Position numbers and translations under genes: made by a program. Below the pieces are notes generated by a model that saw only the letters and a program-made list of their open reading frames with translations, made no database searches and was not told the origin of the DNA. DNA of 26,496 nt from a virus, in the IMG/VR virus record IMGVR_UViG_3300027708_000262, positions 1 through 26,496 of that record; one strand, 5' to 3'. Positions 23,265-26,441 of this stretch are shown here, in pieces (position 1 is the stretch's first letter; the number at the start of each line of letters is the position of its first letter).

Positions 23265-25133
23265 TTATCCGTGACTCTCAGCCCATTGCTCTGCAAAGGC
23301 ATCGTCTAAATTGAGTGAGCCACGTCCAGCGCGTTGCGCCCTAGTAGCCCATCTGTTTGTTTGATACTGCCCAACACGTGATGATTGTTGCATCAGTTCG
23401 CGGAAGCGAATGATTGTAAACCACAAAGCCATAACACAGTCAGTTGGGTTACGTGTGTCTGGCTTCCAGGTGATAAGTTCCTGGACTAAAGTCTTAAGTC
23501 CTTCTGAACCTTCGTTGGAAGGTAGTTCAATAATGTTGTTATCCTGGAAGCGAGTGTCGCGGGTGCTACCAAATAGTGATGCCATAGATGCCACACCAAA
23601 AGATACGTCCCACTTGTTCTTGCCAGTATAATGCGAGTTTAATTGGCAACCATTCATAGCGCAGAAGTTGCGCAGGTTATCATCTAGGGCATAAGCCTTC
23701 TGGTGTGCGTTGATTTCAATACGCAACTCTTGTGGCTTGTACCGCTCCACCCACTCTTCAATAAGTGCTTGAATCTTCATTGGTGTAGGCTCTGTCATAT
23801 TGACGCAATCTAATACATAGATTTTGCCATCTGACTTGTTATACGTTGCCACAACCGCTGCAGTAGCACCAGCCATTGCTGGGTCAAGACCTATGATGGT
23901 ATAAGAACCATCTAAATGCTTGGGGTGTCCTGCTGTCCCGACTTTGAGTGGTCCGCGCTTTCGCATTCCATTGACGGAACCTGCGATGCAAGTTGGTGAG
24001 AAGATTGAATCTTCTTGTACGTCCTCTTGCTGGTAGACCATAGCCCATACTGACGGTGCGACCTCAGAGCGACGCTTAAAGAGAGAAGGTCCGTCCCACT
24101 TGGGAAAAAGTCCATCTGCTAAAACCTCGTCTATGTCATTTTCTTGAATGTTAGTTTTTTCCCAGAGCGTCTTCCAGTTCTTGGGGTCTTCATCAAACTC
24201 TAGAACCGCTGGCATCCCACAGTAAGTGAAGGGGGACTTGCCACCTGTCCATTGGGAGCCGTCCCGAATCATTTTATACAAATCTATGGAAGCGACACGT
24301 GTTCCTACTATAAGCAGTTTGCCGTGCCGCCCCAGTCGGGTGATTACTTCCTTTTGAAGCCATTCGATTTGCTTCTCCCACTCATGGGCGTTGGAACCCA
24401 TCACCACGTCATCTAGGATAATGAGGTCAGCACGTGCTCCATAAATCTGTGAGCCGAAGCCAAGGGCTTGTACTGTGGGGTCTTTCTCTCCAGAGTCGCG
24501 ACCTGTGCCTAGATAAATCATGTCAGCAGACCATTGGGTTGAATCTGCCTTGTAGCCACCATTAGGGCCAAAGGCCGTCTGTAACTTGGTATAGGCTGGG
24601 TGCGATAAACGAGTCTTAATAGCACCTAAGAACTTACGAGCCATGCCCTGAGTCTTAGAGACGATAATGACTCGGGTATTGGGATTGGTGACGATTTGGT
24701 ACAAAGTGTAGTTAGTCGTTATGGTTGTCGACTTAGCATGTTCTGGGGGAACGTTAATAAGGATACGCTTGGGGTCCCCAGGTTCATAAGTCATGCCCAT
24801 AGGTTGCCATCTAGGTTCCTTGCCCTCAATCAAGTCCAGCCAGTTTAACTGGTGGGGGAAGAGGGTAGTGTCTAGGAACTGCTGGCTAAAGTCTGGGTAA
24901 GAGATAGTCTTGAGTTCTGCTAAATCAACCTTGACACCTTTACCCGCAAGGCGGGCTTTATCAGATGCTTCTTTGAAATCTGGGGATTGGAGAACCCATT
25001 GACGAAAGGCTGTGTCTTGGCGACCAACGGCTTGCATGGCTGCTGTGATAGTAGCACCCTGTTCGAGTAGGGCTAGTACCTTGGTCTGAGCCTCATCTTT
25101 GGGTACAGATTGTACTCCAGGCTTGCGTCCCAA
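23265..25133 (-). CDS. terL: Terminase large subunit, with N-terminal HTH
   Basis: 622 residues. Residues 1-65 look like a small-terminase-type helix-turn-helix (TKVLALLEQGATITAAMQAVGRQDTAFRQWV). The ATPase has the Walker-A-like VPPEHAKST (128-136), with Ala instead of Gly as in some actinophage enzymes, Walker B LIILDD (237-242) and the GTR coupling motif (277-279). The nuclease (RuvC-like) has Asp417 in GLDPA, Glu473 in RIEINAH and Asp565 in NPTDCVMA. It translocates DNA into the procapsid and cuts concatemers. No separate small subunit is visible in the window, so the HTH may do DNA recognition. The start codon is TTG, supported by AGGAG 6 bases upstream and by the absence of an in-frame ATG there. 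It is the first gene of the late operon. Confidence 0.92.
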   Translation of the reverse strand: MGRKPGVQSVPKDEAQTKVLALLEQGATITAAMQAVGRQDTAFRQWVLQSPDFKEASDKARLAGKGVKVDLAELKTISYPDFSQQFLDTTLFPHQLNWLDLIEGKEPRWQPMGMTYEPGDPKRILINVPPEHAKSTTITTNYTLYQIVTNPNTRVIIVSKTQGMARKFLGAIKTRLSHPAYTKLQTAFGPNGGYKADSTQWSADMIYLGTGRDSGEKDPTVQALGFGSQIYGARADLIILDDVVMGSNAHEWEKQIEWLQKEVITRLGRHGKLLIVGTRVASIDLYKMIRDGSQWTGGKSPFTYCGMPAVLEFDEDPKNWKTLWEKTNIQENDIDEVLADGLFPKWDGPSLFKRRSEVAPSVWAMVYQQEDVQEDSIFSPTCIAGSVNGMRKRGPLKVGTAGHPKHLDGSYTIIGLDPAMAGATAAVVATYNKSDGKIYVLDCVNMTEPTPMKIQALIEEWVERYKPQELRIEINAHQKAYALDDNLRNFCAMNGCQLNSHYTGKNKWDVSFGVASMASLFGSTRDTRFQDNNIIELPSNEGSEGLKTLVQELITWKPDTRNPTDCVMALWFTIIRFRELMQQSSRVGQYQTNRWATRAQRAGRGSLNLDDAFAEQWAESHG

Positions 25134-25172
25134 TTGGTGCTCCTAAACAGTCTTTTAACGGTCCCATTAAAC

Positions 25173-25186
25173 GGATAGAACTATCC
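25173..25186. promoter_or_regulatory. Palindrome GGATAG-AA-CTATCC upstream of terL
   Basis: Perfect 6-base arms with a 2-base spacer, 40 bases upstream of the terL start and downstream of the candidate promoter, a place where an operator or a leader stem-loop would act. No known binding protein is inferred. Confidence 0.5.
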
Positions 25187-25193
25187 CAATATT

Positions 25194-25231
25194 ATTATAT
25201 ATTATCATATATAGGAGGAGCGGAGTCTTAA
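25194..25231 (-). promoter_or_regulatory. Candidate late promoter for terL operon
   Basis: On the minus strand, TTAAGA (25226-25231) and TATGAT (25204-25209) are separated by 16 bases. A TATAAT lies slightly further down (25194-25199). About 60-70 bases of leader would precede the TTG start. The AACGGAG/CTCCGTT palindrome overlaps the -35. The -35 matches the consensus in only four of six bases, so the promoter is tentative; a phage-specific factor could be needed. Confidence 0.35.
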
Positions 25232-25247
25232 ACGGAGCGACTCCGTT
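25221..25247. promoter_or_regulatory. Overlapping alternative hairpins (CGGAGTC/GACTCCG and AACGGAG/CTCCGTT)
   Basis: CGGAGTC (25221-25227) can pair with GACTCCG (25239-25245); AACGGAG (25231-25237) can pair with CTCCGTT (25241-25247). The two share most of their right arms and exclude each other. At the DNA level the second is also a palindrome with a 3-base spacer. Confidence 0.5.
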
Positions 25248-25289
25248 AATTATATATACATATAAGATAACCTGTTCAAATAGGTGATT

Positions 25290-25304
25290 CCGAACAAAGT
25301 TCGG
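25290..25304. other. Hairpin CCGAAC-AAA-GTTCGG
   Basis: Perfect 6-base arms with a 3-base spacer, in AT-rich surroundings. It resembles a LexA half-site pair but with the wrong spacing. No U-run follows on either strand. Confidence 0.45.
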
Positions 25305-25430
25305 GTAAGTATATTATATTTGGGCGTAAAATACTTTATATATGCCCCCATTATATAACAGAAATTTATTGTGGGATAGTATAAACGGCTCCCGCCTCGC
25401 AAATAATTATGTCTAGGGTCAAATGAAATG

Positions 25431-25460
25431 TCGATTTATCGATTTATCGACTTATCTACA
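25431..25460. repeat. Tandem 8-mers (TCGATTTA x2, TCGACTTA) leading into a DnaA-box-like 9-mer
   Basis: TCGATTTA at 25431-25438 and 25439-25446, TCGACTTA at 25447-25454, and TTATCTACA at 25452-25460, which differs at one base from the TTATNCACA DnaA box. Adjacent AT-rich DNA could serve as an unwinding element. An origin role is inference. Confidence 0.5.
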
Positions 25461-25475
25461 CGGGAGAAGTAATTG

Positions 25476-25489
25476 GTTGAAGATTCAAC
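25476..25489. promoter_or_regulatory. Palindrome GTTGAA-GA-TTCAAC
   Basis: Perfect 6-base arms with a 2-base spacer, 27 bases before the first 35-base-period repeat. Same geometry as several other palindromes in the region, so probably a protein-binding site; partner unknown. Confidence 0.45.
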
Positions 25490-25515
25490 TATCCCCCGAC
25501 CGACCTATTCCCCCC

Positions 25516-25610
25516 GATAGAAGAAAATCGTATAGGATTCTCACCAAGCCGATAGAAGAAAATCCTATAGGATTCCCTACCCTTATCCCGTTGAAAATCG
25601 TATAGGATTC
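25516..25610. repeat. Three iteron-like elements at exact 35-base period
   Basis: The 18-base core (GAAAATCGTATAGGATTC) occurs at 25523-25540 and 25593-25610, and with one change (C for G) at 25558-25575. Starts are 35 bases apart each time. The first two copies extend left by GATAGAA (from 25516 and 25551). The middle copy contains the perfect palindrome AATCCTATAGGATT (25561-25574); the outer copies carry one mismatch. Candidates are iterons, repressor operators or a partition site. Confidence 0.8.
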
Positions 25611-25613
25611 TAC

Positions 25614-25629
25614 TCGAACATCTGTTCGA
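25614..25629. promoter_or_regulatory. LexA (SOS) box
   Basis: TCGAACATCTGTTCGA: perfect TCGAAC-N4-GTTCGA, the LexA site of mycobacteria and other Gram-positive bacteria, and also the longer TCGAACA-N2-TGTTCGA form known from corynebacteria. It lies 3 bases after the third iteron and 151 bases before the plus-strand start. A chance perfect match in 26 kb is roughly one in several hundred. Confidence 0.72.
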
Positions 25630-25637
25630 TAGATAAG

Positions 25638-25653
25638 TGTGATGCGATTCACA
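25638..25653. promoter_or_regulatory. CRP/GlxR-type site TGTGA-N6-TCACA
   Basis: TGTGATGCGATTCACA matches both conserved half-sites of the CRP family consensus exactly and starts 8 bases after the LexA box. In actinobacteria such sites bind CRP or GlxR with cAMP. The centre (CG) differs from the TA usual in GlxR sites. It is 54 bases upstream of the candidate -10. Confidence 0.5.
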
Positions 25654-25683
25654 TTCGACACGCCGCGCCAAAATTGCCCCGAT

Positions 25684-25712
25684 TCGACCAAAACCTCAGT
25701 AGCGGCTATACT
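25684..25712 (+). promoter_or_regulatory. Candidate promoter of the plus-strand gene
   Basis: TCGACC (25684-25689) and TATACT (25707-25712) at 17-base spacing fit a housekeeping-sigma promoter moderately well (4/6 and 5/6). Transcription would begin near 25719, leaving about a 60-base leader that contains the 18-base palindrome. Confidence 0.5.
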
Positions 25713-25743
25713 GATTCCATGAGCGCAACTAGGCGTTTATAGA

Positions 25744-25761
25744 TGTCCGTTAAAACGGACA
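25744..25761. promoter_or_regulatory. 18-base palindrome (operator candidate) in the leader of the plus-strand gene
   Basis: TGTCCGTTAAAACGGACA: perfect 8-base arms with a 2-base spacer, between the promoter and the ribosome site (AAGGTG at 25768-25773). As DNA it would block transcription when bound; as RNA it would form a stable hairpin just before the ribosome site. Its AACGGA half-site recurs near terL. Confidence 0.65.
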
Positions 25762-25779
25762 GAAAATAAGGTGAATAAA

Positions 25780-26376
25780 ATGACTACATCAAAGAAAACC
25801 AAAGCAGAAGTAATCGTTACCGCTCCAAAGATTGAAAGTGCATGGCGAGCCATCTGTGACACTACCGATTCGCAAGATTCGCAACTCGTGAAGTATCTCC
25901 ACTCACTCGCCACCGAGTTAGGCAATTCGCAACTCTCGACTCGTGACCTGCAGAAAGTCATTAAGGCGACAGGCGTGACATCTTCTCGCGTGTCAGTAAC
26001 GCAGGTTCCAAAACTCGTGACATGGCAGGTCTGGCACAATAAGTCGGAGGAGTTCCGCGCCATGGCCATCAACAAGCAACTCTCTCTGGTGTCTAGTGCT
26101 TATGACATTCTTGGCGTCGAATCCGCCAAGGGTATCGCCACACTCGACGCATTGAAGTCTGAGGTTAAAGCAATTCGCGCCACCAAGAAAAGCAAAGCAG
26201 AAAAGCCAGCAAAGCCAGCAAAGAAATCCAAGGTCACTATCGCTCAAGCGTTAGCCGACACGATTCGATTCATCGCCACCATTGACCCTGCGAAATTGTC
26301 AGAGTCAGAATCGCGCTTATTCGATGAACTATTTCGCGTAGTTGAAGAAAAGGCTGAATTGGTAATCCTCGCCTAA
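25780..26376 (+). CDS. Unrecognised 198-aa protein, possible DNA-binding regulator
   Basis: I choose the ATG at 25780 (MTTSKKTKAE) because AAGGTG lies 6 bases upstream; a GTG at 25771 would overlap that site. Residues 1-20 are Lys-rich. A helical part (about 18-120) contains STRDLQKVIKATGVTSSRVS (52-71), which could be a helix-turn-helix. A Lys/Ala/Pro linker (about 134-151, repeated KPAKPAKKSK) joins it to a helical C-terminal domain (152-198). There is no signal peptide or membrane segment. It is the only plus-strand gene and follows the palindrome-rich region directly, with a candidate operator in its leader, so autoregulation is plausible. It uses TCG, CTC and CGC codons more than the late genes. 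No family is recognised; a regulator, origin-binding or partition protein is inference. Confidence 0.75.
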   Translation: MTTSKKTKAEVIVTAPKIESAWRAICDTTDSQDSQLVKYLHSLATELGNSQLSTRDLQKVIKATGVTSSRVSVTQVPKLVTWQVWHNKSEEFRAMAINKQLSLVSSAYDILGVESAKGIATLDALKSEVKAIRATKKSKAEKPAKPAKKSKVTIAQALADTIRFIATIDPAKLSESESRLFDELFRVVEEKAELVILA

Positions 26377-26391
26377 TCTCTCCAAAGATAG

Positions 26392-26423
26392 CCCCCGCCT
26401 TAATCGGCGGGGGTTATTTTTTT
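26392..26423 (+). terminator. Intrinsic terminator after the plus-strand gene
   Basis: CCCCCGCC (26392-26399), loop TTAATC, GGCGGGGG (26406-26413), then TTATTTTTTT. Eight G-C pairs followed by a long T-run, 16 bases after the stop codon. Confidence 0.93.
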
Positions 26424-26441
26424 ACCCTATCCAATTCTCCC

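Follow-up and report, generated by a model that had tools for sequence, protein, structure and literature searches.

A host-type LexA box beside an early gene in relatives of Planktophila phages

A perfect LexA box, of the type found at the SOS genes of freshwater actinobacteria, lies beside an early gene in the window examined here, an IMG/VR virus record of 26,496 bases (G+C 43%), and it is probably the binding site through which the SOS repressor of the host controls that gene, here called gene 1. As the site is kept in many related phages while the surrounding DNA changes, these phages probably sense the SOS state of the host directly. Few groups of bacteria in fresh water are as abundant as the Nanopelagicales, the presumed hosts. 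If an early gene is indeed under LexA control in phages without lysogeny genes, sunlight and DNA damage would be tied to phage development in lakes, and control by host LexA would extend beyond the classical temperate phages.

The LexA box and its setting

A motif scan of the window places TCGAACATCTGTTCGA at 25614-25629, where it agrees with TCGAAC-N4-GTTCGA at every one of the 12 fixed bases. No other site in the window comes within one mismatch, the runner-up having two, and the perfect actinobacterial LexA box claimed in the first-pass annotation thus stands. The palindrome reaches further inward, as TCGAACA-TC-TGTTCGA, and the sequence presumably also fits the corynebacterial 16-mer LexA motif. 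Exact matches are expected by chance at about 0.0014 per whole window from base composition, and at about 5e-5 in the gap of some 640 bp from order-1 Markov shuffles.

This intergenic gap (25134-25779, 646 bp) separates terL, which is read leftward and leads into the genes for portal, major capsid protein and tail, from the divergent gene 1, read rightward. It has promoter-like sites on both strands, in keeping with the earlier description of the box as lying in a control region. Its features and those of its neighbors are as follows.

23265-25133, minus strand: terminase large subunit gene terL, which opens the structural block read leftward (phrog_38, E=5.5e-67)
25204-25278, minus strand: leftward promoter-like sites TGAACA-N18-TATAAT and TTAAGA-N16-TATGAT, before terL and over 300 bp away from the box
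25452-25460, plus strand: TTATCTACA, one mismatch from the DnaA box TTATCCACA and the sole such copy in the window
25514-25610, plus strand: three direct repeats (25514-25540, 25549-25575 and 25584-25610) with the core AATC[GC]TATAGGATT, adjoining the box
25614-25629, no strand assigned: LexA box TCGAACATCTGTTCGA, a perfect motif whose position is kept in relatives and whose 16-mer recurs at a Planktophila dnaE2-type operon
25684-25712, plus strand: promoter-like TCGACC-N17-TATACT, a candidate gene 1 promoter by consensus match only, 54 bp right of the box
25744-25761, plus strand: hairpin TGTCCGTT-AA-AACGGACA in the presumed gene 1 leader
25780-26376, plus strand: gene 1, encoding an all-helical early protein of 198 aa, first gene right of the box; its family adjoins the gap in most relatives
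26388-26424, plus strand: strong intrinsic terminator CCCCCGCC-TTAATC-GGCGGGGG followed by a T-run, directly 3' of gene 1

Several relatives likewise have rightward promoter-like sites, 28-75 bp to the right of the box. At host recA the box abuts a -10 element (box, A, TAGAAT). A conserved counterpart in the phages was considered and rejected; the window has only a minus-strand box followed by G and TAGAAT, and this arrangement is not conserved.

The gap also holds sequence elements of other kinds. The tandem repeats of about 27 bp contain a near-palindrome, AATCCTATAGGATT, that is not general in relatives, and a second palindrome, CCGAAC-AAA-GTTCGG at 25290-25304, has N3 spacing and is thus no LexA box; palindromes with other loops occur at a similar distance from terL in L024, L025, L030 and L040. 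In relatives, the DnaA-box-like TTATCCACA is some 100 times denser in the gap (37 copies in 47.8 kb) than elsewhere (7 copies in 944 kb), and this concentration suggests that an origin, perhaps DnaA-dependent, is probably located there as well. Gaps upstream of terL with DnaA-type boxes are seen in L010-L014, L018-L025 and L029-L040. Many contigs of relatives stop inside the gap (L016, L017, L020, L021, L028, L035, L047 and others), as if assembly had broken at genome ends or at sites of mosaic recombination. In Streptomyces phage Immanuel3, the region that matches the gap corresponds to the genome termini.

The presumed host and its own LexA sites

The nearest named relatives are the Planktophila phages LanE43-AprE7 and LanE43-AprF5 (TerL 80%, major capsid protein 82%), which belong to the same family by TerL tree and structural layout; Streptomyces phages such as Immanuel3 (TerL 44%) are more distant. 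Both Planktophila phages were isolated on Ca. Planktophila LanE-43, of the order Ca. Nanopelagicales (acI), and lyse this strain (PMC10202952). From this kinship we infer that the window phage infects Nanopelagicales, in agreement with the actinobacterial host that had been proposed from the box itself.

Genomes of the Nanopelagicales were reached by a 16S signature, and that of LanE-43 itself was retrieved. Its LexA is a TIGR00498 equivalog (240 bits), and the best structure matches of this protein are to what we take to be mycobacterial-type LexA. Perfect boxes are rare in these hosts, occurring once or twice per genome in 12 Nanopelagicales genomes and one to three times in 190 of 201 genomes of about 1.3 Mb each, for which a reversed control pattern mostly gave none. 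Where the adjoining gene was checked, the perfect boxes lie in the divergent interval between lexA and a YneA-like gene or before a DUF6504/dnaE2-type operon, the dnaE2-type assignment having been made by inspection of the sequence. At one mismatch, six complete Planktophila genomes have just two sites in common: another lexA box, some 60 bp away from the perfect one, and CCGAACATCTGTTCGA, found ahead of recA in LanE-43. All told, these six genomes share recurrent sites at lexA (two boxes), at the dnaE2-type operon and at what was identified in LanE-43 as recA, and nowhere else.

Against this small set, the phage box is a site of host type. The 16-mer of the window is identical to the dnaE2-type site of several Planktophila strains, including LanE-43, and CCGAACATCTGTTCGA recurs in phage L004. 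The four central bases have the form A..T in 25 of 27 phage boxes, and host boxes do likewise, so that the assignment is supported by both the motif and an N4 preference shared with the lexA, recA and dnaE2-type sites of Planktophila.

Conservation of the box among related phages

Comparison was made with 80 relatives retrieved through terL, to which reference phages were added for the box count; KU886271, a published relative, lies outside the collections compared. Within 900 bp upstream of terL, these phages have 25 perfect boxes, 8 with one mismatch and none with two, a count that includes 7 loci found through the box itself. The remaining 1.01 Mb of phage sequence holds no perfect match, 3 with one mismatch and 22 with two. 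When the 7 box-selected loci and L002, a near-copy of the window, are left out, 52 loci remain whose sequence reaches 700 bp or more upstream of terL; 10 of them have a perfect box and 5 a box with one mismatch. In dereplicated boxes, the core is 96% identical, the N4 64% and the flanks about 28%; even the bases adjoining the box are not conserved.

Most carriers have one box. Six phages have two or three (L004, L008, L015, L147, L193 and L220), and in L008, L015 and L220 the boxes stand 52-72 bp apart, a spacing that resembles that of the host lexA pair. Carriers cluster in one clade of the terL tree, on which the box changes state several times; a sister clade of 31 rows is without it, as are E7 and F5. 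The TerL of one carrier, L193, shows no more than 47% identity. The expectation that the box would be kept at the same place in relatives is thus correct for the many that retain the core while the flanks diverge, but it does not extend to all of them, since the large sister clade and the cultured E7 and F5 lack the site.

A scan of the whole collection with TCGAACANNTGTTCGA gave at least 120 matches, and 7 of the 120 listed contigs carry the terL family of the window or a 47%-identical one. Outside this family, the matches listed are mostly near what chance would give in so large a collection. Also outside it, three viral contigs have two noncoding extended LexA boxes (L173:12570-12621, L178:3381-5732 and L241:688-758) and are possibly further LexA-controlled phages.

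Gene 1 as the presumed target

In 18 phages, 51-212 bp separate the rightmost box from gene 1, whereas the interval between that box and terL varies and amounts to several hundred bp. Of 45 relatives, 38 have an intrinsic terminator after gene 1, with a stem whose sequence differs among them. The gene thus has the look of an independent one-gene cassette, and this closeness to the box, together with a terminator of its own, makes it the most likely target of LexA. The AF2 model of its product is all-helical (pLDDT 88.8); profile and structure searches gave no Pfam, PHROG or fold match, and the searches made revealed no kinship to known antirepressors. The subtype of gene 1 and the presence of the box are visibly linked in a comparison without correction for phylogeny. 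Gene 1 is also found in phages without the box, so that its expression cannot require LexA in all of them.

The 39.7-kb relative G016 gives a broader view of this genome region. Beyond gene 1 it encodes an Amidoligase_2 protein, a class II glutamine amidotransferase, a WhiB protein and a transglycosylase-like protein, and its opposite block encodes a primase, an exonuclease, RusA and a sigma-like factor. Genes for an amidoligase (PF12224) and a class II glutamine amidotransferase stand side by side in the early block of this phage group (L270:6932-9003).

In the mechanism that we consider probable, the cassette consists of the box, a promoter, gene 1 and its terminator. As long as a Planktophila-like cell is undamaged, LexA would occupy the box and hold gene 1 down. 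RecA-driven cleavage of LexA, after UV or damage caused by infection, would then release gene 1 alongside host dnaE2, recA and lexA, and the phage would read the SOS state of the host without a LexA-like protein of its own. The binding of LexA and its action on gene 1 rather than on another unit are predictions from the nature and placement of the site, as is any physiological effect. Counted against repression of gene 1 are the distance of 54 bp, without overlap, between the box and the best rightward promoter-like site in the window, the lack of conservation in the bases beside the box, the box-free E7, F5 and sister clade, and the occurrence of gene 1 in phages that lack the box.

Alternative explanations of the box

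The loose position of the box relative to any promoter would also suit a role as a LexA sink, in which replicating phage genomes titrate a small pool of LexA and so induce recA and dnaE2 of the host to the advantage of the phage, no phage gene being regulated. A tiny host regulon with about four recurrent sites and the presence of two or three boxes in some phages fit such titration. The boxes, however, are confined to the gap beside gene 1 instead of being scattered, most phages have only one, and the last box always falls within the same 51-212 bp of gene 1, and we regard titration as unlikely. More doubtful still is the view that some unrecognised regulator of the phage uses the box as its operator and happens to share the palindrome preference of host LexA. 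Gene 1 and many small early genes have no recognised function, and palindromic operators are frequent in such phage gaps; yet the boxes copy host sites in their N4 preference and even in whole 16-mers, as with CCGAACATCTGTTCGA in L004 and at the recA site of LanE-43, and proteins with HTH_3, S24 or LexA-DBD domains were not found in 27 phage records.

The enrichment of TTATCCACA in the gap and the coincidence of the gap with the ends of the Immanuel3 genome could instead indicate an element for replication or packaging, whose likeness to a LexA site would be secondary. As DnaA and LexA boxes are distributed independently among relatives, and such an element leaves the exact identity with SOS sites unexplained, this account is improbable to a slightly greater degree than a phage operator. 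Least probable is a chance occurrence or functionless relic. It is true that many relatives do without the box, but the distribution is bimodal, with perfect boxes or none and no two-mismatch forms, the core is conserved despite diverged flanks, and the expectation per gap is minute; the conservation data strongly disfavor this reading. Control of the gene 1 cassette by host LexA is thus the explanation preferred here.

Lifestyle of the box-bearing phages

In proposing that host SOS signals reach a phage switch, the first-pass annotation had also held that the window encodes no LexA-like protein of its own. Neither the window nor the other phage records tested gave one, the 27 records being free of matches to PF00717 (S24), PF01726 (LexA-DBD) and PF01381 (HTH_3). 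Neither tyrosine (PF00589) nor serine (PF00239) integrases were found in these 27 records, some of them fragments, which include E7, F5 and a 39.7-kb box carrier. A pattern scan of 84,980 genomes for prophages gave no TerL relative, although distant relatives would escape it, and a search of 201 genomes of the host order, run without a positive control and blind to distant relatives, gave none either. The first-pass interpretation is supported in part. The site is of host LexA type, but for a switch between lysis and lysogeny the integrases, CI/Cro-type and S24 repressors and prophages that were sought were not found.

The box phages are apparently non-integrating. Since several records are fragmentary and the prophage searches are blind to distant relatives, a plasmid-like carrier state is conceivable. 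A bolder proposal, which we hold only tentatively and think rather doubtful, is that these phages never integrate, have no repressor of their own and use host LexA as the sole brake; their genome would stay uncommitted in healthy cells, with lysis deferred until SOS. If this were true, a bacterial group that ranks with the most abundant in fresh water would have phages whose lytic deferment is keyed to DNA damage, plausibly from UV in sunlight.

Relation to known systems

The Bacillus tectivirus GIL01 offers a close parallel in regulation: host LexA acts on SOS boxes in a phage promoter (P1) of an unintegrated phage whose state is maintained without a CI-type phage repressor (PMC4551915), and binding of LexA is predicted here as well. 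GIL01 differs in being a temperate linear plasmid with a LexA cofactor, gp7, whereas the window represents a tailed phage in which no lysogeny genes were found. The tum gene of coliphage 186 and the antirepressor genes of N15 are single phage genes that are SOS-induced under host LexA. Antirepressors of Salmonella phages are also SOS-induced single genes (PMC3121763). All share with the predicted cassette a monocistronic arrangement in which one phage gene is under host LexA; they differ in that their products inactivate a prophage repressor, while the family of the window has no repressor or prophage that could be found.

A different paradigm is provided by alphaproteobacterial phages controlled by CtrA and by phi29, controlled by Spo0A, for which the term "lytic deferment" has been used (PMC9437464). 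There, too, recognised lysogeny is missing and a host transcription factor times lytic development, as is proposed here, but the factor governs the cell cycle or sporulation, in contrast to the SOS repressor. Genome-wide scans of two Streptomyces tectiviruses were without LexA sites (PMC6950372). Within the family itself, LanE43-AprE7 and LanE43-AprF5 have the same layout and are reported to encode WhiB and a sigma factor (PMC10202952), but they have no LexA box within two mismatches and no gene 1 beside the gap. Box-bearing and box-free relatives form a natural control pair, for which the host strain and the box-free phages are in culture. No published report of LexA sites in Nanopelagicales phages was found, which is not proof of absence. 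Phages controlled by host LexA are already known; the window would add a further variant, in a host group new to this kind of control.
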